Below the pieces are notes generated by a model. That model made no database searches and was not told the origin of the DNA. It worked only from the letters and a program-made list of their open reading frames with translations. DNA of 51,304 nt from Lampropedia puyangensis (GTDB lineage Bacteria > Pseudomonadota > Gammaproteobacteria > Burkholderiales > Burkholderiaceae_C): assembly GCF_004833285.1 (NCBI RefSeq), contig NZ_STFG01000007.1, positions 1 through 51,304 on the forward strand, in the 5' to 3' direction. The translations under genes were made by a program, and so were the position numbers. Below are positions 6,547 through 27,947 of the stretch, in pieces; positions within the stretch are counted from its first letter, which is position 1, and every line of letters begins with the position of its first letter.

Positions 6547-7620
6547 TCACCGCGCAGCCACTGTCACCCAGTAATTTGTGCGCCTGAGCACCTGCACAGG
6601 CAGATTACGCTGCAAGGATTGCAGCACTTTGTCGGTATCGGCGACTGCAAAAATGCCTGAAACCCGCAAGTGCGCAGCGCTGGCATCGCACGCCAAACGG
6701 CCAACACGGTAGCGAGCCAGTTTGCGCAGGAAAAGTGGCAGCGGCATATCGTGGGCGATGAGGCTGCCACGGGCCCATGCTGCATCTGTTTCACGGTAAA
6801 GCTCCTGGGCATAGGCTTGGCGCGCATCCAAACGCAATTGATACCCCGCACGCACGACCTGCATGTCCCCCACAGGGCCGTTGGGCGCTTGCACCGCACC
6901 ATCAAGGACACCCAAATGGGTGTGATCACCATCGACCCGTACCGTAAAACGCGTGCCCAATGCTTGTAACTGCCCTTGCGGCACCTGAACAAGAAAAGGC
7001 CGCGGATCGTGCGCCTGTTCAGAACGCAACTGCTGGGCCGTCGTCACCAGAATCTCTCCTGCCTTGAGCTGCAACACGCGTTGCTGCGCACTGAAGCGAA
7101 CGTTCAGCACAGTCTGGGTGTTAAGCACCACTTGCGAGCCATCAACCAATACTACCGTTTGCTGCTGCCCTGTGGCAGTGCGGTAATCCGCGCTCCACTG
7201 GTCCCACCAGCCGTTGCGACGCAGCATTTGCCAAGAGCTTGCACTGGTAAAAGCCGCCAAGGCCAGCAGCTTGATCGCCTGTCTGCGTTTGGGAGAATGT
7301 GCTGATGCGCGCGCAGTGGCGACTCCTACCGCATCCTTTTGCAACTGTGCGTGCAACACTTGGCGCAACAGCACACTTGCTGCTTGTGGCGGAGCATCGC
7401 CACGCAAACGCGCACTGAAGCGTTGTAGTTGGGCCCAAGCGGCAGCATGCTCAGGGGCTGCATCGTGCCAGCGCATGAAGGCTTGCCCGTCCTCGCTCTC
7501 CGGTGTTTGCCCCTCCAGCGTAACCATCCAGAAGGTGGCTTGCTCGGTCACTTCGCGCGACCAGCCAAGCGCATCCCCCGCAGGGCTCGCGTCAGACGCA
7601 GGGCGCATCGGCTTCATCAA
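6547..7620 (-). CDS. FecR-type sigma-factor regulator
   Basis: A 357-residue protein with the usual FecR layout. A cytoplasmic N-terminal DUF4880 domain (about 20-65, containing FMRWHDAAPEHAAAWAQLQRF-like residues) is followed by one membrane segment near 113-130. The periplasmic FecR domain (about 145-240) contains TGQQQTVVLVDGSQVVLNTQ and VLNVRF. The C-terminal DUF4974/STN-like region covers about 285-350. Proteins of this type sense the ligand-loaded receptor through its STN domain and control the partner ECF sigma factor as anti-sigma or activator. The start overlaps the sigma gene stop by 4 bases (ATGA). Confidence 0.92.
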   Translation of the reverse strand: MMKPMRPASDASPAGDALGWSREVTEQATFWMVTLEGQTPESEDGQAFMRWHDAAPEHAAAWAQLQRFSARLRGDAPPQAASVLLRQVLHAQLQKDAVGVATARASAHSPKRRQAIKLLALAAFTSASSWQMLRRNGWWDQWSADYRTATGQQQTVVLVDGSQVVLNTQTVLNVRFSAQQRVLQLKAGEILVTTAQQLRSEQAHDPRPFLVQVPQGQLQALGTRFTVRVDGDHTHLGVLDGAVQAPNGPVGDMQVVRAGYQLRLDARQAYAQELYRETDAAWARGSLIAHDMPLPLFLRKLARYRVGRLACDASAAHLRVSGIFAVADTDKVLQSLQRNLPVQVLRRTNYWVTVAAR

Positions 7621-8320: not shown

Positions 8321-9925
8321 ATGTCTCTCACCGCGCTGATCTCTGTTTCCGACAAAACCGGCATTGTCGAGTTTGCCCAAGCCCTTCACCAACAGGGCGT
8401 TCGCCTGCTCTCCACAGGTGGCACCGCCAAGCTACTGGCTGAAAAGGGCCTGCCTGTAACAGAAGTGGCCGAAGTAACGCAGTTCCCAGAAATGCTGGAT
8501 GGCCGTGTGAAAACACTGCACCCAAAAATCCACGGTGGTTTGCTCGCGCGCCGCGATGTGCCTGCACACATGGCAGCACTGAAAGAACATGCCATTGACA
8601 CCATCGACCTGTTGGTGGTGAACCTGTACCCCTTTGAGGCCACTGTCGCCAAACCCGGTGTGACATTGGCCGACGCCATTGAGAACATCGACATTGGTGG
8701 CCCTGCCATGGTGCGCAGCGCTGCCAAAAACTGGAAAGATGTGGCCGTGCTCACCGACGCCAACCAGTACGAAGAAGTGTTGGCACAATTGCGCGCCGGT
8801 CAACTGACAGATGCGTTGCGCTTCCAATTGTCGGTCGCAGCGTTCAACCGCATCGCCCAGTACGATGCGGCGATCAGCAATTTCCTCTCGTCTGTGACGC
8901 TCGACGAGACACAAGTGGGCAATGAGAGCTATGCGCCTGCACGAGGCGAATTCCCAGGCCAACTCAACAGCAGCTTCATCAAGCTGCAAGACTTGCGCTA
9001 TGGCGAAAACCCACACCAGAACGCTGCGTTCTACCGCGATCTGTACCCTGCCCCAGGCTCTCTGGTCACAGCCAAGCAGCTGCAAGGCAAAGAGCTGTCT
9101 TACAACAACATTGCTGACTCCGATGCCGCTTGGGAATGCGTCAAAAGCTTCTCTGCGCCAGCCTGCGTCATCGTCAAGCACGCCAACCCCTGTGGCGTTG
9201 CGGTGGGCGCCCATGCGCTCGAAGCCTATTCCAAAGCTTTCCAGACCGATCCGACCAGCGCGTTTGGCGGCATCATTGCCTTTAACCGCCCTGTTGACGC
9301 AGCCGCTGCTGAGGCCGTATCCAAACAGTTTGTCGAAGTGTTGATGGCCCCTGACTTCAGCCCTGAAGCCCTGGCTATTTTCAAAGCCAAAGCCAACGTG
9401 CGTGTTTTGAAAATCGCCTTGCCACAAGGCGGCGCAACACCGTGGGACAACGGCCGCAACGCACAAGAGGTCAAGCGCATTGGCTCAGGCATTTTGGTGC
9501 AAAGCTCGGACAACCATGTCTTGGCTGCAGCTGATTTGAAAGTGGTCACCACCAAGCAACCAACGGCAGAGCAAATTGAAGACCTGCTGTTCGCGTGGAA
9601 AGTAGCCAAGTTCGTGAAAAGCAATGCCATCGTCTTCTGCAAAAACTCCATGACCATGGGTGTGGGCGCAGGCCAGATGAGCCGGCTGGATTCCGCACGC
9701 ATTGCCAGCATCAAGGCCGAGCACGCAAAACTCAGCCTGCAAGGCACCGCGGTGGCCAGCGATGCCTTCTTCCCCTTCCGCGATGGTCTGGACGTGGTGA
9801 TTGACCATGGCGCCACAAGCGTCATTCAGCCGGGCGGTTCCATGCGCGACCAAGAAGTCATCGACGCGGCCAACGAACGCGGCGTGGTGATGGTGTTCTC
9901 GGGTGTGCGCCACTTCCTGCATTAA
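8321..9925 (+). CDS. purH: Bifunctional AICAR transformylase / IMP cyclohydrolase PurH
   Basis: This enzyme makes the last two steps of purine synthesis: it formylates AICAR with 10-formyl-THF, then closes the ring to IMP. About 534 residues, the usual size. The N-terminal IMP cyclohydrolase part (MGS-like fold) begins [15 protein letters not shown] and contains LLSTGGTAK and [15 protein letters not shown]. The C-terminal transformylase part holds [14 protein letters not shown], the catalytic [10 protein letters not shown] (Lys-His) and [10 protein letters not shown]. The ATG at 8321 is chosen over an upstream in-frame TTG at 8303 because family members begin just before the SVSDKTG motif. 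It is divergent from the sigma factor gene and monocistronic, ending at a terminator. Confidence 0.97.
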
Positions 9926-10022
9926 GCACACCACGGCTGATCGCACAACGCAACGGGTGAGCAGCGTTTGGTGGTAGTAAAAACAGCTAACAAACTGCTG
10001 CTCCCAAGCACTATCTCTCAAC

Positions 10023-10048
10023 CAAGGGCTGCCTCATCGCAGCCCTTG
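10023..10048 (+). terminator. Probable terminator of purH
   Basis: A 10-bp perfect inverted repeat (CAAGGGCTGC / GCAGCCCTTG) with a six-base loop lies about 100 bases after purH. It is followed by a moderately T-rich stretch (TCATTTGCACCCTTTTAT), which is weaker than a classical T run. A second, imperfect repeat (GAGCAGCgTTTG at 9959-9970, CAAACtGCTGCTC at 9991-10003) lies just before it. Confidence 0.6.
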
Positions 10049-10177
10049 TCATTTGCACCCTTTTATCTTGCGCCCTATTCTGCGGGGCATCGCATCACAC
10101 GAATGCCCGTACCAGCACCATAATGCACAGCCATAATGCGTGCGAGTGGCTATCGTCCACCCTCTGTTTGAGCCCCC

Positions 10178-11629
10178 TTGCGCACGACTGCGCCTTTGAA
10201 AATCCCTGTGCAAAGTTCCTCTACACCCTCCGCAGCCAACGCAGGTCAAGACGGCCTGCCCACAGCCCAGCGTCGCAAAGCCGTTTTCGTGATCTTGCTG
10301 GGACTGGTGCTGGTGGTGCTGGATGGGACCATTGTCACGCTGGCCCTGCCACGAATTGCCCATGCGTTTGATGTCCCCGCGGCCTCAGCGGTATGGGTCG
10401 TCACGGGCTACCAATTGGCCGTGCTTGGCTTGCTGCTGCCTATGGCCTCGTTAGGCGAACGTTTGGGATTCCGTCGGGTTTATTTATGGGGCATGGTGCT
10501 GTTTGCCATTTCATCGGCGCTGTGCACCTTGTCGCAAAGCTTGTGGCAACTGGTCGCGTGCCGCGTCGCGCAAGGGCTCGCGGGCGCGGCGGTCATGGGT
10601 GTCAATGCCGCATTGGTGCGCCAAACCTACCCAAGCCACTTGCTTGGCAGAGGCATTGCTCTCAACGCCATGACAGTGGCCATCTCTTCGGTGGCGGGCC
10701 CGTCATTTGCTGCGCTAGTTTTGTCCGCATTGAGCTGGCCTTGGCTATTCGCCATCAATGTGCCATTGGCGATTCTGACCGTTTGGCTTGGTCGCAAACA
10801 CCTTCCGGCCAATGTACGTTCGCCCAACCAGCCGTTTTCTGCACTGGATTGGTGCCTCAACATGGCCGCATTCGCTCTGGTTTTTTGGGGCTTTGATGGC
10901 TTGGTCACACATGGTTTTTCCGATGGCCAACTCACACCATCGGGTTACAGCAGCGCCCAAGGTCTAGCCATTGGCATTGCCGCTTGGCTCTGGTATCTCT
11001 ATCGGCAACGCCGCTTGGCCACACCACTATTCCCATTGGATTTGCTGCGTATCCCAGCATTTAGCCTGTCCATGTGCGCCTCAATTTGCGCATTCAGCGC
11101 GCAGATGCTGACCTTCATTGCCTTGCCATTTTTAAGCATGAGTATCTTGCAGCAAAGCCCTTTGCAAACAGGAATCCTCGTGAGCGTATGGCCGGTAGCC
11201 ATTGCCTTGACTGCGCCATTTGCGGGGCGCCTGATTGGGCATATTCAAGGCGCGACGCTGGGTTTGCTCGGAATGGCTTTGCTGAGTCTAGGCCTCGCAC
11301 TCACGGCAGCGCTGCCGCTACATACAGAAATGGGGTGGCACGTCCTGACACTCGCGCTATGCGGCATTGGCTTTGGCCTGTTCCAAGCTCCTAATAACCA
11401 CATCATCATGACCGTAGGACCCAAAAATCGCAGCGGGGCTGCCGGTGGCATGCTGGGCACTGCGCGGCTGACCGGTCAGTCTTTAGGTGCCGCATTGGCA
11501 GCGGGCATCTTTGCGCTGTTCCCGCCCCCCCAAGCGGTGAATGGCCCGCAATGGGCATTTGCGCTGGGCGCCGTATGCGCAGCATTGGCAGGGATTTCCA
11601 GTATTTTGCGCAGATCTCCATCGCCATGA
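10178..11629 (+). CDS. MFS transporter, DHA2 (EmrB/QacA-like) family
   Basis: A membrane transporter of up to 483 residues with about 14 hydrophobic segments. Residues 36-60 carry LVLVVLDGTIVTLALPRIA, the motif D1-like signature of the DHA2 drug:H+ antiporters, and LGERLGFRRVYLWG is the loop 2-3 motif A of the superfamily. AVSSVAGPSFAALV-like residues near 170 resemble antiporter motif C. Such pumps export drugs, dyes or metabolites with proton antiport; the substrate cannot be named here. The start is uncertain: no ATG is available, with TTG at 10178, TTG at 10196 and GTG at 10208 all possible. No clear ribosome-binding site helps. The thioesterase gene follows after 27 bases and may be co-transcribed. 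Confidence 0.88.
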   Translation: MRTTAPLKIPVQSSSTPSAANAGQDGLPTAQRRKAVFVILLGLVLVVLDGTIVTLALPRIAHAFDVPAASAVWVVTGYQLAVLGLLLPMASLGERLGFRRVYLWGMVLFAISSALCTLSQSLWQLVACRVAQGLAGAAVMGVNAALVRQTYPSHLLGRGIALNAMTVAISSVAGPSFAALVLSALSWPWLFAINVPLAILTVWLGRKHLPANVRSPNQPFSALDWCLNMAAFALVFWGFDGLVTHGFSDGQLTPSGYSSAQGLAIGIAAWLWYLYRQRRLATPLFPLDLLRIPAFSLSMCASICAFSAQMLTFIALPFLSMSILQQSPLQTGILVSVWPVAIALTAPFAGRLIGHIQGATLGLLGMALLSLGLALTAALPLHTEMGWHVLTLALCGIGFGLFQAPNNHIIMTVGPKNRSGAAGGMLGTARLTGQSLGAALAAGIFALFPPPQAVNGPQWAFALGAVCAALAGISSILRRSPSP

Positions 11630-16322: not shown

Positions 16323-16504
16323 TCGGCATACGCAGCCATCAGTGATGGCACAAAGTCCTTCGCCTTCAGCAATTGCAAAGGCGTAAAAACGTATGTTCCC
16401 CCATCTAACAGCAACAACACGCAAGCTTACTGCTGCTTCGTGCTTGATTTCTGCAATATCAACCAGGCAAGCACAGCACCATTCCTCAACACAAAAAACA
16501 ACAA

Positions 16505-16533
16505 TTGTTACCAAATAAAAGTAATGCTATCAT
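16505..16533 (+). promoter_or_regulatory. Sigma-70-type promoter of the surface-protein gene
   Basis: TTGTTA (16505-16510) and TATCAT (16528-16533) are separated by exactly 17 bases, matching the -35 and -10 consensus at 4/6 and 5/6 positions. The spacer is AT-rich, and an inverted repeat CCAAAT/ATTTGG spans spacer and -10, which could be an operator. Transcription would begin near 16540. Confidence 0.6.
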
Positions 16534-16597
16534 TTGGTTGCATTTTTGTTTCTTGATCAGAAAATAAGCCGTTAAGCATATTTCCGCGAGGAGGTCG

Positions 16598-16687
16598 TTG
16601 ATAGTTCTGCGCATTGTTCTTGTTCCCAACCAATCTCTGCATCATGCAAGCAAAGAGCGCAAGACGCCATCAACCCGCATCACTTAG
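16598..16687 (+). CDS. Possible leader peptide, 29 codons, TTG start
   Basis: A short frame starting at TTG three bases after a perfect GAGGAGG sequence and ending at TAG, inside the leader of the surface-protein gene. It begins hydrophobic (MIVLRIVLV) and ends basic. The spacing of three bases is shorter than ideal. No family is recognised. It may be a regulatory upstream reading frame, or the GAGGAGG may be chance; confidence is low. Confidence 0.15.
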   Translation: MIVLRIVLVPNQSLHHASKERKTPSTRIT

Positions 16688-16721
16688 TGTCAGAGACACT
16701 GCAGTAAAGGCATCGATTTTC

Positions 16722-19010
16722 ATGAAAACACATCGCTCACCCACTCACAAACGAACCATGATAGGCAAAGCTTTGATTGCTGCTTTTGCCGTCGCTTCCA
16801 GTGGCAGCGTTTTAGCGCAAACGAACTATTGGGTCGGCCCCGGTGACTTTACTGACGAAGACGCTTGGAGTGCAGCAAGCACTAATGTGCCCGGCGCCAA
16901 TGTTGTCAACGATATAAGTGCCACTTGGGGGCTTGATAGCTCTAACAACAGTGTATACCTCGGTAGTGCGTTCTACATTGGGCATGCCGCAGAGGGTTCA
17001 CTGAACATTAACTCCAGTGATTTCGGCTCCATCAGTATTGATATTGATGAAACAACATCAGGAATTGATCCTGCACCTTCAACTTTAGACCAATATGTCG
17101 ATCCTTTCTTCCGAGTTGGGGATGCGGAAGGGCACGGTCATCTGAGAATTAACGTTCAATCAACGCCAACAGGAAGCGGAGGAAGCGGCACCGTCAGACT
17201 GTATGTGGAAGAGGTAGGTTTAGGGGTCGGGCTCGGCAATAAAAGCGAGGGGATCGTTGATGTACTGGGTTCTGGGAAAACACTTGACCAAATGACAAAT
17301 GGTTCCCCTAATATGGTGGGCTTTTTCCACACCCAGCAGAACAGTGTTATTGGGCATGATGGCGGCGAGGGGAAAGTTAATCTCGATGGCGCAGGCCTTG
17401 GGTTCACGCCCAACGTCTATAACGGCCCACTCCCTCTTTTCATGGTCGGCGATGGTGGGTCCTCAAAAGGCAGCATTAATGTACTGAATAATGGGAAGCT
17501 GTCGGTCGGAGACTCGTACTCTGGAGACACGACTGACATTGCAGATCAATTACCGCTTAGCTTTATTGGCAATCGTTCTGGAGAAGGCACAGTTACTGTA
17601 GAGTCATCCGCATCCGGGGAGTTCGGCAACCAAGCCAGCTTTAACCTTGGTCTGGTCGTTGGTAGCGCTAGTGGTAACGGTACACTGAATGTTCTCGCGA
17701 ACGGAAAAGCAACTATTTCGAATGGGCCAACAAGCACATCGAATGGAACTTGCTCTGCTACGGACCCAAATCTTCCGCTTGCTTCCGTACCCCTGCAAAT
17801 CAGTGCTGACAACACCGCAAGTGGGCTTGTGCGGGTTTCTGGGACAAATGCTCAATTGATCGTAGCAGGTCTCACCAACAATGCCGACGATACAGTGCCA
17901 ACTGTGATTCAAGAAAATACTATTGGTCAAATTAGCATTGGAACTGGCGGCTCTCTGATAACGGAAAACAATGCAGTAATTAAAGTGGGAGTAAACCACT
18001 TAACGAGGGTTAGCACAGGGGCACCCAACTGGGAGACATACGGGAACCGAGTATCAGTCGGAGGTTTAGGCCCGATTATTGCCTCTGGTGCAGGGCAAAT
18101 TGTGTACGGATCAGAAACAACAACCCCCACAGCAGCTGGCTCTATTGAGGCATCATTGATCAATCTGAATTCAGCCGATGCCCAGGTTGCATTCAATCAC
18201 ACGGGATCACTGACTTTTAACATCCCTCTTTCAGGCACAGGCAAGCTGACGCAGCAAGCAGGGACCACCACCATTTCAGGCGACATTGTTGAGTTCCCTT
18301 CAGCTGCATTAACCACGAATAAATTTGAATTTGATACCACACCGGACTGCAAGCCAGACATTGCAGATGGCTATTTGCCAGACCACGCAGCATTCACGGG
18401 TGGGATTGATGTGCAAGGCGGCACGTTAACTCTTCCATCCAACGATGTTCTACCATACCTATCGACTACCAACATTAGTGGTGGTACGTTATTGCAAGGT
18501 GGTACAGACCAAAACTTAGGTGCTGTGACTCAAACAGGCGGTGTAATTCAATTGACTGGCGGTACGACTTCACAAGCTACAGATACAGCCACCGCTACCT
18601 CTTGGGCTGGTAGCAACGGCACCGTTGCCCTTGACACTGTGTTGGGACTTGATGGAAACGATAGCGATAAGCTGCACATCACAGGTCCAATCAGCGGTAC
18701 AACACTCTTGCACATCAGCAATCTGGGGGGCACCGGAGCACAAACAACAGCTGATGGCATTCTGGTTGTTCAAGCAGATGTAGCTCATCCAGATGACAGC
18801 TTCGCCCTCGCCACACCTGTCATTGCAAATGGATTTGAATATACGCTGAAACAAACGGGAAATAACTGGTATCTAGTCTCGAGCCCTACTGCAGTTCAAC
18901 CCTCTGTCGTGGCAAAACCAGTCCCGTCCATGTCCGGACTGGGCTTGCTTGGATTGGGATCACTGTTGGCTGCATTCTCCGCTTTCTCTTTGAGAAGACG
19001 TCAACGGTAA
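16722..19010 (+). CDS. Secreted pertactin-like repeat protein with IPTL/CTERM-like sorting tail
   Basis: A predicted surface protein of about 762 residues. The ATG at 16722 gives a clean signal peptide ending VLA before QTNYW; upstream starts (ATG 16644, TTG 16614) would add an unlikely polar extension. The body is a Gly/Ser/Asn/Thr-rich beta-helix with repeats such as SGNGTLNVLANGKATI and SSKGSINVLNNGKLSVG, resembling the T5SS/PEP-CTERM-associated repeat family. Near the end, SDKLHITGPISGTTLLHISN and GGTGAQTTADGILVVQ match the C-terminal stem of pertactin-like autotransporter passengers. No beta-barrel follows. Instead the protein ends VPSMSGLGLLGLGSLLA, a hydrophobic stretch and RRRQR, which resembles the IPTL-CTERM sorting signal. 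Two Cys occur (NGTCSA, TPDCKP). The protein is probably exported and then sorted or anchored. Its function is unknown. Confidence 0.8.
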   Translation: MKTHRSPTHKRTMIGKALIAAFAVASSGSVLAQTNYWVGPGDFTDEDAWSAASTNVPGANVVNDISATWGLDSSNNSVYLGSAFYIGHAAEGSLNINSSDFGSISIDIDETTSGIDPAPSTLDQYVDPFFRVGDAEGHGHLRINVQSTPTGSGGSGTVRLYVEEVGLGVGLGNKSEGIVDVLGSGKTLDQMTNGSPNMVGFFHTQQNSVIGHDGGEGKVNLDGAGLGFTPNVYNGPLPLFMVGDGGSSKGSINVLNNGKLSVGDSYSGDTTDIADQLPLSFIGNRSGEGTVTVESSASGEFGNQASFNLGLVVGSASGNGTLNVLANGKATISNGPTSTSNGTCSATDPNLPLASVPLQISADNTASGLVRVSGTNAQLIVAGLTNNADDTVPTVIQENTIGQISIGTGGSLITENNAVIKVGVNHLTRVSTGAPNWETYGNRVSVGGLGPIIASGAGQIVYGSETTTPTAAGSIEASLINLNSADAQVAFNHTGSLTFNIPLSGTGKLTQQAGTTTISGDIVEFPSAALTTNKFEFDTTPDCKPDIADGYLPDHAAFTGGIDVQGGTLTLPSNDVLPYLSTTNISGGTLLQGGTDQNLGAVTQTGGVIQLTGGTTSQATDTATATSWAGSNGTVALDTVLGLDGNDSDKLHITGPISGTTLLHISNLGGTGAQTTADGILVVQADVAHPDDSFALATPVIANGFEYTLKQTGNNWYLVSSPTAVQPSVVAKPVPSMSGLGLLGLGSLLAAFSAFSLRRRQR

Positions 19011-19061
19011 TAGCTTATATCTACTAGTGCACGATCACCAAACCTTTCATGTTTGCTGAGA

Positions 19062-19079
19062 ACCAATAAGCATATTGGT
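19062..19079. repeat. Inverted repeat after the surface-protein gene
   Basis: ACCAATA (19062-19068) and TATTGGT (19073-19079) form a 7-bp perfect inverted repeat with a four-base centre, 52 bases after the stop codon. No T run follows on either strand, so it is not a classical terminator and may be a protein-binding site. The rest of 19011-19282 holds nothing I recognise; no strong terminator separates the surface gene from the SapC gene. Confidence 0.35.
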
Positions 19080-19282
19080 ACGCAAGCATGGAGGGTGAGG
19101 GTATCAGCACAATATTTCTCGCAACATGCGAAGTACGTGTGAATACACTGATGTAACAACACATGACTTATGGTGTGACGCACAGTCTGTCCAAACTACA
19201 AACTAGACCTTGCAATAGCTTGCACCATTTTCACCAAATCACCGCGACCGTACTCTTTTCCATAAACGCCTCACGTTAGCCT

Positions 19283-20044
19283 ATGACAACTGCAGTCGCG
19301 CAGCCTGCTGCACCGATTTTTTACAACTCGTTGACAGCACTAGATTCCACCCTTCATTTGGGCTGGGGCGTTCGCAATCAGACATGCCTGTTGACTGCTG
19401 CAAAGGCCAATGCTATTCCTTTAGGGGTGAGTGAGTTCTGGTACGCCAGCGCGCATTACCCCATCGTGTTTGGTCCAGCCGGAGCCAGTGTTTTCCCTGT
19501 TGCGATTACTGCTATCGTTGAAGGTCACAATCTATTCATTGACGAACAAGGGGAATGGGCAGCTGACACCTATATTCCGGCTTGGTTACGCCGATATCCG
19601 TTCTGGATGCAGCCTGACCCTGATGGAGAGAATGCCAGCCTGTGGTTCGACCCCAGTGCCCAGCAAGTGGTGCCTTTGCATGAATTTGCAGATGCCAAGC
19701 CACTTTTTGATTTTTTAGGTAACCCTAACTTGGCCTTGGAGCGAATCATTCAGTTTTGCAAACAATGCCAAGCGGATACCAACCACACTTATGCATTCAT
19801 GCAGGCGCTGGAGGCACACGAGCTTTTACTTGATCGGCAAGTATCAGTTGAGCTTTCACCTGGTAATACTTACTCGCTCAGAGGATTTCGAGTGATTGAT
19901 ATGGCCAAATACCATCAGTTACCTGATGCGGTATTGGCACAGTGGGTACGCCATGGCTGGACATCGCTTATCGCGTTGCACCAAGTCTCTTTGCAACACA
20001 ATTGGCAGAAGCTTCTCACTCTCCACCGCCGTTTGAATGACTAA
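19283..20044 (+). CDS. SapC family protein
   Basis: A 253-residue protein without signal peptide or membrane segment. It matches the SapC family (PF07277) by its features in order: FYNSLTALDSTLHLGWGV at the start, ANAIPLGVSEFWYASAHYPIVF (about 40-61), a conserved VAITAIVEGHNLFI stretch, WAADTYIPAWLRRYPFWM (about 93-110), and a C-terminal helical part with LHEFADAKPL and LRGFRVIDMAKYHQLPD. The family takes its name from a gene in the Campylobacter fetus S-layer locus; in other Proteobacteria it often lies beside TonB receptors and flavin halogenases. Its biochemical role is unsolved. Here it opens the acyl-ligase/P450 operon, an unusual setting. The next gene follows after 41 bases. Confidence 0.85.
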   Translation: MTTAVAQPAAPIFYNSLTALDSTLHLGWGVRNQTCLLTAAKANAIPLGVSEFWYASAHYPIVFGPAGASVFPVAITAIVEGHNLFIDEQGEWAADTYIPAWLRRYPFWMQPDPDGENASLWFDPSAQQVVPLHEFADAKPLFDFLGNPNLALERIIQFCKQCQADTNHTYAFMQALEAHELLLDRQVSVELSPGNTYSLRGFRVIDMAKYHQLPDAVLAQWVRHGWTSLIALHQVSLQHNWQKLLTLHRRLND

Positions 20045-20085
20045 AGTCACCATCGCTTTTTTAAAGTTTCAACATAGAACGTAGT

Positions 20086-20730
20086 ATGAGTACTGGCGGT
20101 TTCCGAATTCCATTACGCAAAGCCCAAAACAATACGGCCTCAAACAAGAGCGCAGGAAGTCCGATTTATATTGAAACACCGCATCTCATCACGCGTAGTC
20201 TGGTTGCCGCTGATGTAACGCCTGAATTCGCTCAATGGTTTAACGATGCGCAAATGCTTCAAGGTTTGAACTTATCGGCCCTGCATTTTTCTGTTGATGG
20301 CTTGCGCGCCTTTGTGGCCAGCTTTGACAACGTGCAGCACTATTTAATTGGTATTTTCAGCAAGCTCGAAGACAAGCTATTGGGTTTTTACAATTTCAGT
20401 ATCAATCCGCAGCATCGCATCGCAACGCTAACACTTGGCGCAGACCCGCAGATCAAAACCGGACGGGAAGTGTTCTGGGAGTCCTGGTTCCCTTTATGTG
20501 ATGAGGTATTCGACCACAGAGGCGTGGACAAAATCACATCAAGGGTGCTGAGCAGTAACCGTAAATTGTTGTTCACTTTGATTGAAACCGAGCACTTTGT
20601 GTATGAAGCAACATTGAAACAAGAAATTCTCGGCCAAGATGGCAAACGTCTCGATGTGATGGTCTTGTCGTGCTTCAAAGATCTTGCTCTGCGCCCTAAC
20701 CCCAAGGGCTCTTCAGAGAAAAATGCGTGA
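20086..20730 (+). CDS. GNAT family N-acyltransferase
   Basis: A 214-residue protein with a polar 25-residue N-terminus and a GNAT fold. IETPHLITRSLVAADVTPEF begins the first strand and helix, GIFSKLEDKLLGFYNFSIN and IATLTLGADPQIKTGREVFW form the central sheet and cofactor loop, and ITSRVLSSNRKLLFTLIETEHF is the usual late segment before the last strand. Canonical members move acetyl from acetyl-CoA to an amine. Beside an acyl-AMP ligase and a carrier protein, an alternative is transfer of a long acyl chain from the carrier to an amine, as for N-acyl amino acid synthases of the FeeM type. That is inferred from context. The gene overlaps the next by 8 bases. Confidence 0.8.
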   Translation: MSTGGFRIPLRKAQNNTASNKSAGSPIYIETPHLITRSLVAADVTPEFAQWFNDAQMLQGLNLSALHFSVDGLRAFVASFDNVQHYLIGIFSKLEDKLLGFYNFSINPQHRIATLTLGADPQIKTGREVFWESWFPLCDEVFDHRGVDKITSRVLSSNRKLLFTLIETEHFVYEATLKQEILGQDGKRLDVMVLSCFKDLALRPNPKGSSEKNA

Positions 20731-22495
20731 ACGGAAAGTAGGCGGCTTCGCACATTTACTGGAAGCGTTGTGCTATGCAGCTGAAGTTCCCAGTCAACGC
20801 TTGAGCTGGTTTGACAGCACGGGACAACTGGCAGATACCTTGACCTACGCTCAACTGCTACAAAGAACAGAACACTTTGCACAGGCACTCACGCAACGCA
20901 CGGCACATGCAGAGATAAACTCCAACGCTATTGCACAAAGAATAGGCATCATTGCTCACACGGGGCCAGATTTTTTGGCTTTATTTTGCGCATGCCAATG
21001 GATTGGAGCCATTCCCTGCCCACTGCCTGTCTTGGGTGTATTACAAGACGCCGAGCGATATACCCAGAGTTTGCAAAACATGTGCGTAGCAGCCGGGATC
21101 TCCACAGTACTTGTACCGCCATCATTGAAAAAAGTACTGCAAACCCCTGCCCTCGCTGGCATTGCCTGCATCTCGTTTGATGAACTTGCCTGCTCTACTT
21201 CTGGCACGCGCATGCCAACCCCAACGGTGGCCCCCATACTGCCTGATGCGATTGCCTATGTTCAGTTCAGCTCAGGTTCAACCGGTCAGCCTAAAGGGGT
21301 TGCCATTTCACATGCAGCGCTTATGCACAATGTCGATGCGATTCTTCAGCATGGCATGAAATTAACAGAGGACGACTGCGCATTTTCATGGTTGCCGTAC
21401 TTCCATGATATGGGACTGGTCGGCTTCGTTTTGGCGCCATTGTGCGGACAAGTCAGTGTTGATTACTTAGCACCGGCAGCGTTTGCCAGAAGGCCTTATT
21501 TGTGGCTGAACCTGATGGCCGAACGTGGAAGCACCATCACATACGCGCCGAACTTTGCATGGCGCCTAGCAGCCCAGTGTGCTGAAAAAGTATCCCCAGA
21601 ACGTCAGCTACATGCCATTCGCATTGCTGGTATTGGCGGTGACTATGTCGATTACGGCGCACTGGTAGCCTTCAAAGAGGTTTTTGAAAAACATGGCTTT
21701 GATGCCAATGCCTTCAAACCAAGTTACGGCCTTGCTGAAGCGACATTGGCAGTGACAATGTGCCACGCCCCTTTTATCCAGCAATGCGCATACTTTTCAC
21801 TCGATGAAGTATCACACCAGGTAAAAGAAGTGCTGCCCGATACGCCAGACGCAAAACCTTTGGTCAACTGCGGCTTACCCCTTACAGATTGGACGATTCA
21901 CATCCTCGATGATGCAGGGCAGCCCTTACCACCGGGTGTTGAAGGCGCCATCAATTTGCAGGGCAGCGCACAGCTTAGCGGTTATTTTAAAAACGGGCAC
22001 CTTGAGCATACAGTGGCTGCACAGCCTATATCGACTGGTGACAGAGGCTTTCTCAGCACCGATGGGGCGCTCTACATCACCGGTCGCAGCAAAGACATGA
22101 TCGTGATCAATGGACGCAATATCTGGCCATTGGATGTTGAACTGGCGGTGCATGAGCAAACACTCATTGCCCTTGAGCATATGCAATTGATACAGGTGCA
22201 CGCATCAAACAACCATACGCCACAACTGCATTTACTAGTGCATGAGAAAGCACTTCGCCAGCACGGCGGTAGCGGCATACTCAACGCCATAGAAACCACT
22301 GCGACAGCAACAGCTGGCGCAAAAGTCATCGCCTCACTGGTGCCCAATGGCATGATTGCCTACACTTCATCAGGAAAGAAAGCCCGCGCTTTAACCGCTA
22401 GCCGCTTCACTGCACAATCAGAAATACCGCTCTCCATACCAGAGCAAGCCGATGGTTTGCCAACCAACTTTTCTCAAACTAAAACTACGCCATGA
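20723..22495 (+). CDS. Fatty acyl-AMP ligase (AMP-forming, FAAL-like)
   Basis: A 590-residue adenylate-forming enzyme. The ATP loop is FSSGSTGQPKGVAISH (about 180-195), followed by WLPYFHDMGLVGFVLAPL, typical of FAAL and FadD32-like enzymes, then SYGLAEATLAVTM (about 333-345), TGDRGFL, and ITGRSKDMIVINGRNIWPLDVE, where the RNIWPxDxE form is usual in fatty acyl-AMP ligases. The end carries a catalytic-Lys-like SSGKKAR (about 549-555). Such enzymes activate free fatty acids as acyl adenylates and pass them to a carrier protein rather than CoA. The ATG at 20723 overlaps the GNAT stop; an upstream CUG/ATG extension would run deep into that gene. The carrier protein gene overlaps its stop by 4 bases. 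Confidence 0.9.
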   Translation: MRERKVGGFAHLLEALCYAAEVPSQRLSWFDSTGQLADTLTYAQLLQRTEHFAQALTQRTAHAEINSNAIAQRIGIIAHTGPDFLALFCACQWIGAIPCPLPVLGVLQDAERYTQSLQNMCVAAGISTVLVPPSLKKVLQTPALAGIACISFDELACSTSGTRMPTPTVAPILPDAIAYVQFSSGSTGQPKGVAISHAALMHNVDAILQHGMKLTEDDCAFSWLPYFHDMGLVGFVLAPLCGQVSVDYLAPAAFARRPYLWLNLMAERGSTITYAPNFAWRLAAQCAEKVSPERQLHAIRIAGIGGDYVDYGALVAFKEVFEKHGFDANAFKPSYGLAEATLAVTMCHAPFIQQCAYFSLDEVSHQVKEVLPDTPDAKPLVNCGLPLTDWTIHILDDAGQPLPPGVEGAINLQGSAQLSGYFKNGHLEHTVAAQPISTGDRGFLSTDGALYITGRSKDMIVINGRNIWPLDVELAVHEQTLIALEHMQLIQVHASNNHTPQLHLLVHEKALRQHGGSGILNAIETTATATAGAKVIASLVPNGMIAYTSSGKKARALTASRFTAQSEIPLSIPEQADGLPTNFSQTKTTP

Positions 22496-22737
22496 GCCAC
22501 CCACAACTGCCGACCATCCAACGAATCATTTCTGAAAGCTTACTGATTCCTGCCGACCGTATTGCGCTGGAAAATCCTATTGCCGGCCTGCACAACATCG
22601 ACAGTCTTTCCTTTGAAATGATCATTGTGGCAATGGAGGCAGAATCGGGAAAGTCCATCGAGCCCGAAAATCTGATGCCGCTCAAAACAGTGGGGGATTT
22701 GGCCGATTTATTAAACAAGTTAAAACAAACGTCCTGA
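22492..22737 (+). CDS. Acyl carrier protein
   Basis: An 81-residue stand-alone carrier protein. The phosphopantetheine site is in NIDSLSFEMIIVAMEAESG, with the modifiable Ser at position 38 in the DSL motif, and the four-helix pattern of the PP-binding fold surrounds it. The chain after the site is acidic (EAESGKSIEPEN), as usual. Start ATGA overlaps the ligase stop, so ligase and carrier are made together in fixed proportion. It most likely receives the acyl chain from the ligase and presents it to the P450 encoded 11 bases downstream. It is distinct from the housekeeping AcpP, whose sequence is different around helix I. Confidence 0.9.
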   Translation: MSHPQLPTIQRIISESLLIPADRIALENPIAGLHNIDSLSFEMIIVAMEAESGKSIEPENLMPLKTVGDLADLLNKLKQTS

Positions 22738-22747
22738 ACAAGCACCT

Positions 22748-24031
22748 ATGAGCCAGACCGACACTGCATCAAATTTTTGTCATGAAATTTATGAGTTGGC
22801 GCGCCGCTGGCCCAAACAGAATCAAGTTCGTGCGCAGCCTGATGGTCGCCGCCTGTTGATTATTCAGAATCTGGATGATGCAGACAGGATCATGCGTCGC
22901 AATGCTGACAATTACTTTAAAAACTCAAAATGGTTGTCCCAAGTCGCAGGCAACTCCCGCCTCACTGCCGATAGCGAGGCTTGGAAATTTCGCCAAAAAA
23001 TTTCTCAACCATTTTTTGGGAAGTACGACCATACAAGGGCATTTGCGATCAGCAACATTCAGGCTAGGGCAATTGCAGAAGCGCTTGTGAGTAGCCAAGA
23101 CTCGACGACACTCAATGAGCACGTCATCCATCAAGGAATGGCCTCAATTTTTACGCAAATGTTTTTGGAGATGGAGCTTGTGCAACTGCCCATATCCCAC
23201 GACAGTCCTTCCCAATTAGTGGAACTGGCTTCTGCCTATGCTTTCGTTGCGCCAGGACAGGAAAAAAACCTCGAAAACAAAGAGCACATTCGAAAAATCC
23301 TGCAACTGCGCAAAAGCATCTTTGACGCACTCGCTCCGCTGCGCGACGATACATCACTCAAGAGTCCATTATTGAAGGCCATACTCAATGCTGAATCGGA
23401 AAAAAATTCCGACTTCTCGCTGGAAAAGGAACTCCCTACGCTAATAGATGCCGGCACGGATACAGCCGCTTACTCGGTAGGCTGGGGCCTGCATCTTTTG
23501 GCAGCATACCCCAAACTGCAAGAGCGCCTATATCAAAGTCTCAGCCACATCTATGCCAGCAATGCAGATAATCCTCAAGCATTGCAGTCAGCCATTGCAC
23601 AGCACAGTGAACTACGGGGATTCATTGCAGAACTTCTGCGTCTCTACCCCCCGCTCCCATTCGTAACTAGGTTAGCGCACGCGAACGATCAACTCTCTGA
23701 CATTGATGTGATTGCCGGTGATGTGGTTGTCGTATCACTAGTCGGCGTCAACAATAAAGCGTTAGAGCGAGACGATCCTTGGGTACCAAATATTGATGCA
23801 GCCATTAAAGAAGGGTATGGCATGGGTACTGGCTCGATTTCAAGCTTTGTATGGGGCAAACGTGTATGCGGCGGTCGCAGTTTTGCGTTAGTGGAATTGG
23901 CCACTGTATTGAGTGTACTGATTGCACAACTCAAAATTGAGTTCAGTGAAGACAAGCCGGTGGCGTATGAATGGGTTGGGCAAATGCGGCGTAAAGGGGG
24001 GCACCCTCTACGCGTTAGCCGCCGCACCTAA
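22748..24031 (+). CDS. Cytochrome P450
   Basis: A 427-residue soluble P450 with no membrane anchor. The haem-binding loop is FVWGKRVCGG with the axial thiolate Cys at 374. The oxygen-activating I-helix motif AGTDT lies at 235-239 and the K-helix ExxR is E295-R298 (ELLR). These three signatures are complete, so an active monooxygenase is expected. Redox partners are not encoded nearby. Position after a ligase and carrier protein suggests that the substrate is a carrier-bound acyl chain, as for BioI-type P450s; hydroxylation or desaturation are both possible. It ends the operon, 28 bases from the convergent transporter gene. Confidence 0.93.
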   Translation: MSQTDTASNFCHEIYELARRWPKQNQVRAQPDGRRLLIIQNLDDADRIMRRNADNYFKNSKWLSQVAGNSRLTADSEAWKFRQKISQPFFGKYDHTRAFAISNIQARAIAEALVSSQDSTTLNEHVIHQGMASIFTQMFLEMELVQLPISHDSPSQLVELASAYAFVAPGQEKNLENKEHIRKILQLRKSIFDALAPLRDDTSLKSPLLKAILNAESEKNSDFSLEKELPTLIDAGTDTAAYSVGWGLHLLAAYPKLQERLYQSLSHIYASNADNPQALQSAIAQHSELRGFIAELLRLYPPLPFVTRLAHANDQLSDIDVIAGDVVVVSLVGVNNKALERDDPWVPNIDAAIKEGYGMGTGSISSFVWGKRVCGGRSFALVELATVLSVLIAQLKIEFSEDKPVAYEWVGQMRRKGGHPLRVSRRT

Positions 24032-24059
24032 AGCAATACGTACATGAGAACCATGCCTG

Positions 24060-25259
24060 TTATTTCTTACGCTTGTGCCACGTACCATTAAGCACCGCAC
24101 ACGCTAAAAGTCCCACCACCAATCCCCAAAACGCACCGCCAATTCCCCATAAATTGACGTTGGCTGCAGCCGCTAAGAAGGTAATCAATGCGGCTTCTCG
24201 GGTCTTGGCATCGGCCATTGCACTGGCCAAACTGGAGCCAATAGTGCCCAGCAAAGCCAAGCCCGCAAGGGTGGTGATAAAGCTAGCAGGAAACGCCATG
24301 AATACTGCAGCCAACGTCACCCCAAACACCCCGACCAAAATGTAGAAAACCCCTGCAGCAATGCCCGCAACCCAACGCTTGCCGGGCTCCTCGTGTGCCT
24401 CCTTTCCTGTACAGATAGCAGCTGTGATCGCCGCCAGATTAAAAGCATGCGAACCAAAGGGCGCCATCAACAAAGAGCCCAATCCCGTCAGCGCGACAAT
24501 CGGGTTGGCACTGGTGCTAAACCCGTCATTGCGCAGCACCAACATGCCCGGCATGTATTGTCCTGTCAGCGTAATCAAGAACAATGGCAGAGCCACATTC
24601 AGCATGGATTGCAACGTAAAAACTGGGCTGGTGAATACAGGTACTGCCAATTGCAGTCGTACATCCGACAAATCAATGCGATGCTGCACTAGCAGTATGA
24701 ACAAACCCAAAAGCAAAATTCCCACCACGGCATAACGTGCGCATACCCGCTTAAAGACGATATAGGCAAGAATCAAACCACCAGCCAGCACTGGGTCTAT
24801 GCTTAAAGCGCCAAAAGCCTTAAGACCAAACTGCAACAAAATACCAGCCAATAAGCCAGCACAAATGCTTGCAGGAATCAGGCGAATCACCCGTTCAAAC
24901 CAGCCTGCCCACCCCAGCAAGAGAAAAGCAGCGGCAGACACCATATAAGCGCCCACCGCTTCAGCATAAGAAGTGCTAGCCAATGCCGTGACAAGAAATG
25001 CCGCAGCCGGTGTAGACCATGCCGTAATGATTGGCGCGCGGTATTTCCAACTCAACAAGACGCCAGTCACGCCAACGCCGATAGAAATAGACCAAACCCA
25101 TGACGCTGTTAATGCAGGACTCAGTCCTGCCACTTGGGCGGCCTGAAACACGAGAATAAAGGTTCCACCGTAATTCACGATGACTGAAATCAATCCAGCG
25201 ACAACAGGGTGGATGTAATCACGCCAACGCAAAAATGGGGCAACGATAAGAGATGACAT
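24060..25259 (-). CDS. benE: BenE family benzoate/H+ symporter-like transporter
   Basis: A 399-residue inner-membrane protein with 11-12 hydrophobic segments. The order of motifs follows BenE (PF03594): VAGLISVIVNYGGTFILVFQA near the start, WSISIGVGVTGVLLSWKYR, ITAWSTPAAAFLVTA, IPASICAGLLAGILLQFG, LTLTGQYMPGMLVLRNDGF-like residues and PFGSHAFNLAAITAAICTG. BenE of Acinetobacter takes up benzoate with protons, but many paralogues occur without benzoate genes, as here, so the substrate is uncertain. The ATG at 25259 is preferred to an in-frame TTG at 25280. It is divergent from the MocR-type regulator, which may control it. Confidence 0.85.
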   Translation of the reverse strand: MSSLIVAPFLRWRDYIHPVVAGLISVIVNYGGTFILVFQAAQVAGLSPALTASWVWSISIGVGVTGVLLSWKYRAPIITAWSTPAAAFLVTALASTSYAEAVGAYMVSAAAFLLLGWAGWFERVIRLIPASICAGLLAGILLQFGLKAFGALSIDPVLAGGLILAYIVFKRVCARYAVVGILLLGLFILLVQHRIDLSDVRLQLAVPVFTSPVFTLQSMLNVALPLFLITLTGQYMPGMLVLRNDGFSTSANPIVALTGLGSLLMAPFGSHAFNLAAITAAICTGKEAHEEPGKRWVAGIAAGVFYILVGVFGVTLAAVFMAFPASFITTLAGLALLGTIGSSLASAMADAKTREAALITFLAAAANVNLWGIGGAFWGLVVGLLACAVLNGTWHKRKK

Positions 25260-25317
25260 GGTGCTGTAGTGCTTTCTCAAAAAATAGCGTCTATCAAAGC
25301 GTTTTTATAGTTCTGAA

Positions 25318-25334
25318 ATGGACTGATAATCCAT
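25318..25334. promoter_or_regulatory. Possible operator between transporter and regulator genes
   Basis: ATGGACTGATAATCCAT is an inverted repeat (ATGGA / TCCAT around a seven-base centre) in the 103-base divergent interval. Its place between the two start codons makes it a candidate binding site for the MocR-type regulator. Known sites of this family are often direct repeats, so the assignment is tentative. Confidence 0.35.
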
Positions 25335-25362
25335 GCCATTTATGAAGTGATATACAGACCAA

Positions 25363-26883
25363 TTGTTTAAACATGCACAACTTGAATCAGTCAAAGCGTG
25401 GATCAAAGACCCTAGCCATGCGCGTTTGCCATTGCATGCACGCCTACAGCGCGCACTTCGCCAATTAATACTTGAAGGAGCGCTCGAAGCGGGTAAACCA
25501 CTGCCAGCCACGCGCGCACTTGCCTTGTCGCTTGAAGTGTCACGCGATACAGTCGAATCGGCCTACGGGCAGTTGCATGCGGAAGGTTTCATTGAGCGGA
25601 AAGTCGGCAGCGGCAGCTTTGTCTCAAACCGTGCAAGCCATCGTCCCAGCACAGGTATCAAAAGACGTTTCCCTCAACGCAATGCCCATGCAATGGGCGT
25701 TGCACTGCCTGCTCCGCAATTGAGTCAGCGCGGTATTGCCGTTTTACAAAACGGGGGCCTTCGGGACTTTGTGACTCCGCGCCCGTTTGCACCTGGCGTG
25801 CCGGAAACCCGCAACTTCCCTCTGCGCACGTGGGAGCGTCTACAGCGGCAGGTCCTGAAAGAACATGGCACCAACGCCTTGTTGCACAGCCCTCCACAAG
25901 GCATGGCAGTGCTGCGCGAAGCCATTGCAAACTATATCAATCTGGAGCGCGGTGCCCGAACTTCGCCTGAATGCGTACTTGTGCTCACCAGCTCACAACA
26001 GGCTTTTACGCTGTGCGCGAACGTGTTGTTTGATGCAGGCGAAGCCCTCTTTATAGAAGACCCTGCCTACCATGGCGCCCGCAAAGCCTTTCTAGCAGCA
26101 GGCCTGCAATGCTTGCCAGTCCCTGTTGATGGAAATGGCATCCAAATAAGCGAACTCAAACGTCTCTCATTACAAGCACAAAAGCCTCCTAAAGGGATTT
26201 GTCTCACCCCATCACACCAATTCCCCTCTGGCGCCACTTTGTCACTGGACCGCCGGCTGGCGGCGATTGAATGGGCCCAGCATAACCAAGGCTGGATCAT
26301 TGAAGACGACTACGACAGCGAATTCCATTACGAAGGCAGGCCAACCGCTTGCGTACAAGGGCTTGATACGCACCAGAGAACCTTGTATATCGGCACCTTC
26401 ACCAAATCGCTGTTCCCCGGTCTGCGCATTGGTTACATGGTCTTACCCCCACCATTGGTTGAACCGATGACCATTGCACGAACCTTGCTCGATGGCCACA
26501 GCGCCCCAATGGCCCAACTGACACTGGCACGTTTTATAGAAGCTGGGCACTATGGCGCGCACATCCGCACAATGCGGGCCGTCTATAAAGAAAGGCGCGA
26601 TGTCCTTGCTGAGTTAATCGAGCAACACCTCAGTGACTGGGTTGTTGCCAAAACACCGGACGGCGGCATGCAAATGCTCTGTATTTGCAGGCAAAACCTT
26701 CCTGAACAACGCATCATTGCCAGCGCTCGATCTGCTGGCATTGACTTGCTCGGCTTATCCGAGCTCTATGCCAGTGCCCCCTGTCCCACAGGTTTTTTAA
26801 TGGGATTTGCAGCCCATGCACCGCATGAATTACAAGCAGCCGTGATGCAGCTGGCCAAAATATTGCGTGCCTTAGCGGCATGA
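25363..26883 (+). CDS. MocR/GabR-type PLP-dependent transcriptional regulator
   Basis: A 506-residue chimeric regulator. Residues about 17-88 form a GntR-type winged helix (LHARLQRALRQLILEGAL, LPATRALALSLEVSRDTVESAY, EGFIERKVGSGSFV). From about 125 onward it is an aspartate aminotransferase fold of type I, with SQQAFTLCANVLFDAGEALF, IEDDYDSEFHYEG and the PLP-binding Lys (about 348) in GTFTKSLFPGLRIGYMV. Such proteins sense amines or PLP metabolites, not by catalysis but by binding. The only available start is TTG at 25363, since an upstream ATG is followed at once by a stop. It is divergent from the transporter gene, its likely target. Confidence 0.9.
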   Translation: MFKHAQLESVKAWIKDPSHARLPLHARLQRALRQLILEGALEAGKPLPATRALALSLEVSRDTVESAYGQLHAEGFIERKVGSGSFVSNRASHRPSTGIKRRFPQRNAHAMGVALPAPQLSQRGIAVLQNGGLRDFVTPRPFAPGVPETRNFPLRTWERLQRQVLKEHGTNALLHSPPQGMAVLREAIANYINLERGARTSPECVLVLTSSQQAFTLCANVLFDAGEALFIEDPAYHGARKAFLAAGLQCLPVPVDGNGIQISELKRLSLQAQKPPKGICLTPSHQFPSGATLSLDRRLAAIEWAQHNQGWIIEDDYDSEFHYEGRPTACVQGLDTHQRTLYIGTFTKSLFPGLRIGYMVLPPPLVEPMTIARTLLDGHSAPMAQLTLARFIEAGHYGAHIRTMRAVYKERRDVLAELIEQHLSDWVVAKTPDGGMQMLCICRQNLPEQRIIASARSAGIDLLGLSELYASAPCPTGFLMGFAAHAPHELQAAVMQLAKILRALAA

Positions 26884-26937
26884 ATCCACCGTTCGTGCAG
26901 CGCTGCTGCATGTCGATAATCGTATGACCATTACCGC

Positions 26938-26973
26938 AAAAAAATGCTGTACGAAAATGAATCCGTACAGCAT
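26938..26973 (-). terminator. Intrinsic terminator of the hfq-hflX-hflK-hflC region
   Basis: A 10-bp perfect stem (ATGCTGTACG at 26944-26953, CGTACAGCAT at 26964-26973) with a ten-base loop is followed on the minus strand by seven T residues (26938-26944). It lies 33 bases beyond the hflC stop and should end the long housekeeping transcript. Confidence 0.85.
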
Positions 26974-27005
26974 GAGTGTTCGCTAGAGGAGCCAGCGCTC
27001 AAGCG

Positions 27006-27947
27006 TTACTTGGCGCCCGCGCCATCCGTGCGCATGGCCTTGAAAAACTCCGACTCTGCCGGGTTAAGCACCATCACATCGCCAGGTTGGCCCAAACTGT
27101 TGCGATAGGCTTGCAGGCTGCGATAGAACTGGGCAAATTCAGGATCCTTACCAAAGGCATCGGCAAATGTACGTGTTGCAGCACTATCGCCCACTGCACG
27201 TGTTTCCTGGGCTTCTTTGTAGGCATCTGCACGTGTTTTTGTTGCTTGACGTTCGGCATTGGCGCGAATACGTTCACCTTCTGCCAAGCCTTCTGAACGC
27301 AGGCGTTCCGCCTCACGGGCACGCTCAGCCTTCATTCGGTTGAAGACCGACTCGGTAATATCCTTGGAGTAATCCACGCGGGTAATACGCACATCGGCAA
27401 TTTCTATCCCCCATGAGCCCACTACCGTACTCACACTTTGCCCATCAGCAGATTCTTGTGTGCGAGTAGCGCCTCCCACACTCTGGGAAACTTGCTTGAG
27501 CACCGCATCCATCAGTTCTTGACGCTGTTCAGACAACAACTGGCGCACAGTTCTGCGGTTGACTTCCTCTTGGAAAGCGCTGCGCACAACCCGGCTCAGC
27601 TGGGCCGCACCATCTTGCTCAGAACGTCCGACATTGCGGATATAGGCCTCTGGATCAGCAATACGCCAACGCACATACCAATCAATAACAACCCATTGCT
27701 TTTCTGCAGTCAAGGAAGGCTCTGTAGAGTTGCTTTCCAACGTCAGCAAACGGTTGTCCAAATAATCTACCGTTTGAAATGGAGACGGAAGCCACTTGAG
27801 ATGCAAGCCCGGTTCTTTAACCACACGACGGATTTCACTCAACTGGTAAACCACGCCATATTGGCGTTCATTCACCACAAAAAACAAGGAGCTTGCCACT
27901 GCCAAAGCAACCAGCAGCGACACAAGCCAAAAGCCAATTCGATTCAT
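27006..27947 (-). CDS. hflC: FtsH protease modulator HflC
   Basis: A 313-residue SPFH/band-7 protein with one N-terminal membrane helix (about 5-25) and a periplasmic body. The family start FVVNERQYGVVYQLSEIRRV is followed by GLHLKWLPSPFQTVDYLDNR, and the long Ala/Arg/Glu helix (VFNRMKAERAREAERLRSEG) near 190-240 is typical. HflC and HflK assemble a large membrane cage around the FtsH protease and limit its access to membrane substrates. The gene follows hflK by 27 bases. In many Burkholderiales hisZ and purA come next, but here the transcript ends at a terminator. Confidence 0.96.
   Translation of the reverse strand: MNRIGFWLVSLLVALAVASSLFFVVNERQYGVVYQLSEIRRVVKEPGLHLKWLPSPFQTVDYLDNRLLTLESNSTEPSLTAEKQWVVIDWYVRWRIADPEAYIRNVGRSEQDGAAQLSRVVRSAFQEEVNRRTVRQLLSEQRQELMDAVLKQVSQSVGGATRTQESADGQSVSTVVGSWGIEIADVRITRVDYSKDITESVFNRMKAERAREAERLRSEGLAEGERIRANAERQATKTRADAYKEAQETRAVGDSAATRTFADAFGKDPEFAQFYRSLQAYRNSLGQPGDVMVLNPAESEFFKAMRTDGAGAK

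Follow-up and report, generated by a model that had tools for sequence, protein, structure and literature searches.

A fatty acyl ligase, carrier protein, P450, and acyltransferase gene cassette recurring beside surface-protein genes, a candidate line for dedicated protein acylation

To our knowledge, the known systems of protein acylation that depend on an acyl carrier protein (ACP), namely those of RTX toxins and CdiA, draw on the general acyl-ACP pool of the cell. In the RTX systems, HlyC-type acyltransferases use acyl-ACP to acylate lysines of an exported protein, and CdiA uses two-partner secretion. In mycobactin biosynthesis, the fatty acyl-AMP ligase (FAAL) MbtM, the free ACP MbtL, and the GNAT protein MbtK together load and pass on a fatty acyl chain, with a lysine side chain as the acceptor; the product is a siderophore made with a nonribosomal peptide synthetase (NRPS), and the acyl-transfer set is not known to include a P450 or a surface protein. 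RTX proteins are exported by type I secretion (PMC3034196). In class IV contact-dependent inhibition systems, the gene of the acyltransferase CdiC adjoins that of the large displayed protein CdiA, which is lipidated with a hydroxylated fatty acid; CdiC is homologous to the RTX toxin-activating acyltransferases, and the passages on CdiC and CdiA in that paper mention no FAAL, ACP, or P450 belonging to the system (PMC8510554). Autotransporters are also known to be modified in other ways: TibC is a dedicated enzyme that adds a sugar to the passenger of TibA (PMC10450907), while NalP and SphB1 receive their lipid through a lipobox in the signal peptide and the Lgt-Lsp-Lnt pathway, with no cassette involved (PMC8151025). 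Here, we describe a locus of Lampropedia puyangensis (assembly GCF_004833285.1, contig NZ_STFG01000007.1, positions 1 to 51,304; this stretch of 51,304 nucleotides is hereafter the window), in which genes for a SapC-family protein, a GNAT-fold acyltransferase, a FAAL, an ACP, and a cytochrome P450 follow the gene of a putative surface passenger (Table 1). The locus shares the FAAL, free ACP, and GNAT with the mycobactin set and the adjacent displayed-protein gene with CdiC/CdiA, and it would resemble TibC/TibA in having a dedicated enzyme for a passenger, here with a fatty acyl group in place of a sugar.

The main observation is that the GNAT, FAAL, ACP, and P450 genes recur as a cluster next to surface-protein genes. 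This core was found in eight loci beyond the window, giving nine loci in eight genomes; the initial annotation of the window had named a lack of co-occurrence in other genomes as a refutation of its proposal, and on this count the proposal was not refuted. A surface-protein gene is adjacent in 9/9 loci: eight have autotransporter-type passengers, three of them weakly related to that of the window, and one (L048) has two IPTL-CTERM proteins. The order passenger-SapC-GNAT-FAAL-ACP-P450 is common to the window and to both copies in one genome (L045 and L046, G536); the Comamonas koreensis locus L032 has a short-chain dehydrogenase gene between ACP and P450, as does L044 (G416), which is without SapC. 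L047 (G516) is composed of three GNAT genes followed by FAAL, ACP, P450, and dehydrogenase; its passenger, of distant similarity and encoded on the other strand, continues past the contig end with the anchor out of view and matches no Pfam domain. In L048 (G474), the IPTL-CTERM genes flank ACP and are followed by P450, SapC, FAAL, and a GNAT with an extra N-terminal domain. The remaining loci pair the cassette with autotransporters having a beta-barrel (PF03797): in L079 (G752), an autotransporter of 1679 aa lies between two GNAT genes, followed by FAAL, ACP, and P450, and in L095 (G1229), an autotransporter with a beta-barrel, an AC_1 domain, and an in-frame stop precedes GNAT, FAAL, ACP, and P450. 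The latter stop is a TAA at 7138-7140 in a draft genome 86% complete, reflecting either decay or an assembly error. GC-rich loci were read by six-frame searches, as shadow ORFs mislead ORF calling. SapC is thus present in five of the nine loci and the dehydrogenase in three. The DSL site is kept in all nine ACPs and the heme loop FxxGxRxCxG is present in 9/9 loci; the strict I-helix pattern is found in the P450s of eight loci, the single match in L079 appearing to lie outside its P450.

Table 1. Features of the cassette, its passenger gene, and the surrounding inserted block in the window
Feature	Position	Strand	Details and basis
Block missing from the matching site of same-genus genome G577	16323..27005	.	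holds passenger and cassette, BenE, MocR
Surface passenger	16614..19010	+	signal peptide-like start, repeat region, autochaperone domain, no beta-barrel; PF18883, PF03212
Lysines K259, K329, K421 (numbered from ATG 16722)	17496..17984	+	invariant in six tailed passengers
Passenger C-terminal tail	18921..19007	+	VPSMSGLGLL...RRRQR, IPTL/PEP-CTERM-like by pattern
SapC-family protein	19283..20044	+	253 aa; PF07277 (Pfam)
GNAT-fold acyltransferase	20086..20730	+	predicted structure, family alignment
FAAL	20723..22495	+	Pfam, NCBIfam, closest PDB relative
ACP	22492..22737	+	NIDSLSF site; Pfam, motif
Cytochrome P450	22748..24031	+	ExxR, I-helix, and heme signatures; Pfam, motifs
BenE-type transporter	24060-25280		within block
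MocR-type regulator	25363-26883		within block

In the window itself, the five plus-strand genes with spacings of 41, -8, -4, and 10 bases were described exactly by the initial annotation in order, strand, identity, and spacing, but the range given for the unit was too narrow: the passenger gene immediately 5' of SapC had been overlooked and belongs to it. The SapC-family protein scores 176.8 bits against PF07277 (Pfam cut-off 28.9), and the Pfam scores of the other enzymes are 169.6 bits for AMP-binding (FAAL), 30.8 for PP-binding (ACP), and 88.9 for p450 (P450, with the motifs ELLR, AGTDT, and FVWGKRVCGG). Judged by its sequence, the third gene encodes an AMP-binding domain with FAALs as nearest relatives: its closest solved structure is the fatty acyl-adenylate ligase 3PBK (E 5.7e-81, aligned over nearly the full length), and the top NCBIfam model, 'fatty acyl-AMP ligase', gives 439.2 bits, under the subfamily cut-off of 600. 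The first possible start of this gene is TTG 20684; ATG 20723, which produces the 8-base overlap, is preferred because the relatives start at the matching position.

The passenger probably starts at ATG 16722 and matches PF18883 (autochaperone, 71.8 bits) and PF03212 (23.2 bits); the beta-barrel PF03797 is absent by Pfam, so the protein does not qualify as a type Va autotransporter. The tail VPSMSGLGLLGLGSLLAAFSAFSLRRRQR stands where the beta-barrel would be. Its sole NCBIfam match is midcut_by_XrtH (15.3 bits, cut-off 45), and TIGR04174 (IPTL-CTERM) gives no match at E <= 0.1; the homologue in L044 reaches 16.6 bits against TIGR04174 (cut-off 20.5), and both surface proteins of L048 exceed this cut-off. 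The tail pattern is common to six aligned tailed proteins, comprising five cassette-linked passengers and an unlinked copy, L072. Clear passenger homologues adjoin the cassette in L032, L044, L045, and L046, and similarity is weaker in L047, L079, and L095. The kind of anchor shows a pattern across the host genomes. Exosortase H (TIGR04177) is present in all five genomes whose cassette has a tailed or IPTL-CTERM neighbour (G588, G416, G536, G474, and that of the window, where it lies on contig C34 with E 7.6e-67, above the cut-off), and it went undetected in two genomes with beta-barrel passengers, G752 and G1229 (86% complete), as well as in G516, whose passenger has its anchor out of view. 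SapC accompanies 5/6 loci with tails and 0/3 others. As separate observations in G536, another IPTL-CTERM protein adjoins the L046 passenger (L046 14049-15827), and the third passenger copy, in L072 (8157-10820), is without cassette genes.

Passenger and cassette also appear to have travelled together. At the matching site of G577, RmuC is followed by a band-7 gene, whose counterpart in the window is at 27006; 71 and 76 bases align at the block edges, and only matches of chance size (12-13 bases) occur between them. The GC content is 0.494 from the passenger to the P450 (16722-24031) vs 0.573 to the left and 0.528 to the right. Direct repeats at the block ends were limited to matches of 7-8 bases. 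RmuC is kept in G1137 with a different neighbour, which makes that site uninformative, and it was not found in six other genomes searched. Across the compared loci, SapC, GNAT, FAAL, ACP, P450, and the passenger lose identity to the window in one common order; this comparison left out L079 and L095, used L048 for SapC, GNAT, FAAL, and P450 only, and for the passenger covered L032, L044, L045, and L046 only.

The predicted fold of the window acyltransferase is that of a GNAT, with RimL/RimJ-type proteins and, tied with them, SpeG as the nearest folds. It has no Pfam match of its own; Acetyltransf_3 is matched by 8/11 family members at E <= 0.1, the window member not among them. The canonical CoA pyrophosphate loop of GNAT proteins, Q/RxxGxG/A, is by eye not conserved in the alignment of the 11 sequences. 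A FeeM-type GNAT, as initially invoked, is not supported, given these folds and the lack of any Pfam match to FeeM, LuxI, or HlyC among the 11 members; likewise, neither FeeM nor the exosortase-associated acyltransferase was matched by the 11 members in Pfam or by the window GNAT in NCBIfam. PF02794, the family of HlyC-type toxin-activating acyltransferases, was matched by none of the 11 at E <= 0.1, a difference from the RTX systems.

The recurrence beside surface-protein genes suggests that tailored fatty acids are placed on those proteins. We propose, with a probability of about 0.48, that the cassette is a dedicated acylation line, which would prepare an oxidised fatty acid on the ACP and attach it, ahead of export, to the surface protein encoded alongside. 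By analogy with its family, the FAAL would adenylate the fatty acid and load it onto the ACP. The P450, together with the short-chain dehydrogenase in three loci, would oxidise the ACP-bound chain. The GNAT would then move the acyl group to amino groups of the passenger, most likely lysines, in the cytoplasm, a role like that of CdiC for CdiA or of HlyC for RTX proteins, though outside that family. In some hosts, display of the passenger would rely on a beta-barrel, and in others apparently on an exosortase-H-type tail; the acyl chain would serve to tune adhesion or contact with membranes, and SapC may be an accessory of the tailed form only, perhaps presenting or modifying the substrate. The basis of this proposal, drawn from comparison of sequences, is the conserved clustering, the parallel divergence, the anchor pattern, and the joint presence in one inserted block. 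Somewhat more tentatively, the cassette could represent protein lipidation of a new class, in which one self-contained operon activates and oxidises its own fatty acid and transfers it by a RimL-like GNAT with an acyl-ACP donor, acting on the same type of substrate with the anchor swapped between a beta-barrel and an exosortase tail. If this is true, bacteria with such a ligase, carrier, and P450 of their own could furnish a surface protein with a custom lipid, the role of one SapC-family protein would become testable, and passengers of one kind with two kinds of anchor would offer a natural comparison of surface anchoring.

The initial annotation had left the product as either an oxidised N-acyl compound or an acylated protein, made with no polyketide synthase (PKS) or NRPS. 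The FAAL-ACP-P450-acyltransferase unit is indeed conserved as a set, with no PKS or NRPS among the cassette genes, and of the two options, the adjacency of a surface-protein gene in every one of the nine loci favours the protein. The main rival, which we regard as unlikely, is that the operon yields a small N-acyl product, such as an amino acid or polyamine amidated with an oxidised fatty acid, with the surface protein as its receptor, its carrier, or merely a part of the same cell-surface programme. Several facts weigh for it: the FAAL-ACP-GNAT logic has a small-molecule precedent in MbtM, MbtL, and MbtK; the MbtM model is among the FAAL matches (197.1 bits, cut-off 621); SpeG structures match the GNAT; and 3/11 GNATs touch Acetyltransf_8. 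On the side of passenger acylation, K259, K329, and K421 are candidate acceptor sites only, and their invariance, like the GK rung motif found in 8/8 cassette passengers vs 3/10 unlinked proteins (one of the three being L072, and L095 being represented by the first piece of its passenger only), is weak evidence and may reflect mere kinship. What speaks against a small molecule is that the adjacency of the surface-protein gene persists through four arrangements, including its position between two GNAT genes in L079, and that the dehydrogenase is the only gene added between cassette genes (3/9 loci), although the flanks were not annotated by family and a transporter-like gene is nearby in L047 by eye.

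It is improbable that the unit modifies another surface target, such as lipid A, an amino sugar, or a polysaccharide, with the passenger as a linked surface gene. The window GNAT does have a weak similarity to PseH (amino-sugar N-acetyltransferase), its sole NCBIfam match (25.5 bits, cut-off 93.1), and PseH and FdhC are among the fold matches of its model; yet none of the nine loci has a sugar gene between its cassette genes (flanks not annotated), and the distant GNATs that occur in sugar-nucleotide-like loci by eye (G631 and G784) are without FAAL, ACP, and P450 homologues. Very improbable is the idea that the cassette makes a lipid used in protein sorting, serving as the moiety onto which exosortase H attaches tailed surface proteins, since the co-occurrence of exosortase H and SapC with tailed or IPTL-CTERM loci is offset by the beta-barrel autotransporters of L079 and L095, and by G481, G577, G1016, and G1079, where exosortase H is present and no GNAT of the cassette family was found.

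Among the listed titles and abstract openings of open-licence papers on autotransporters with FAAL or acylation and on exosortase (H) with ACP or autotransporter, no account of the system was found, and a word search of a FAAL review found no GNAT, P450, autotransporter, or surface protein (PMC11837247). Kinship with plasmid FAAL clusters was rejected, as all 237 matching plasmid records (237/237) were <60% identical; three plasmid FAAL neighbourhoods (E. coli, Roseomonas, and Sphingomonas) had no passenger, SapC, GNAT, or P450 in the PLSDB gene tables, which are incomplete. No defence-family model matched SapC, GNAT, FAAL, or P450, and no phage-family model matched SapC or GNAT. Consensus promoter sites numbered 3, vs 9.0 in shuffled sequence, so any operon limits are tentative.

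The cassette is rare in the sampled genomes. A single-protein GNAT search matched 8/200 family genomes (E <= 1e-5): that of the window, the carriers G416, G474, G516, and G536, and G491, G493, and G521, which have no cassette as far as their loci were read (a short locus only for G493). Profile searches matched 5/399 family genomes at 1e-25, 4/369 genomes over the class at 1e-12, 2/198 in the family of G752, and 3/299 over the phylum at 1e-20, and a scan of genome contigs yielded one locus, L032. G521, G491, G493, G631, G784, and G1386 were excluded as non-cassette matches; the last has a lone distant GNAT relative (L096 8700-9221) with no clear FAAL-ACP-P450 cluster nearby. As G752 and G1229 fall outside the order of the window genome, though within its class, at least two orders hold the cassette. 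The extra N-terminal part of the L048 GNAT (8883-10211), about 230-240 residues, resembles a second GNAT by eye and has no Pfam match.

The link of SapC to lipid chemistry in general, proposed at first, was not supported: the protein is missing from 4/9 cassettes, and 30/30 other fetched SapC loci, from >100 matches and with at most 1.5 kb on each side, had no homologue of GNAT, FAAL, ACP, or P450 at E <= 1e-3. For this reason, and given its neighbours in L022, SapC does not look like a general lipid gene. PF07277 was found in 91/399 order genomes, the window SapC being the only match in its genome; G516 has a SapC elsewhere, with no cassette homologues around it, and none was found in G416, G752, and G1229. 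No PDB match was found for the predicted SapC fold. Genes named sapCDEF are mentioned as a conserved part of the S-layer locus of Campylobacter fetus (PMC4943207), and the titles and abstract openings of open-licence SapC papers gave no description of such a gene set. An alignment of 32 SapC sequences has nine invariant residues (E51, F63, N83, W92, P99, P106, F107, D123, and S236). In L022 (1-3187), SapC has a tryptophan halogenase (PF04820) on one side and a Cupin_8 protein on the other, and the first gene of L019, L029, and L031 is similar to that of L022, judged by its first residues.
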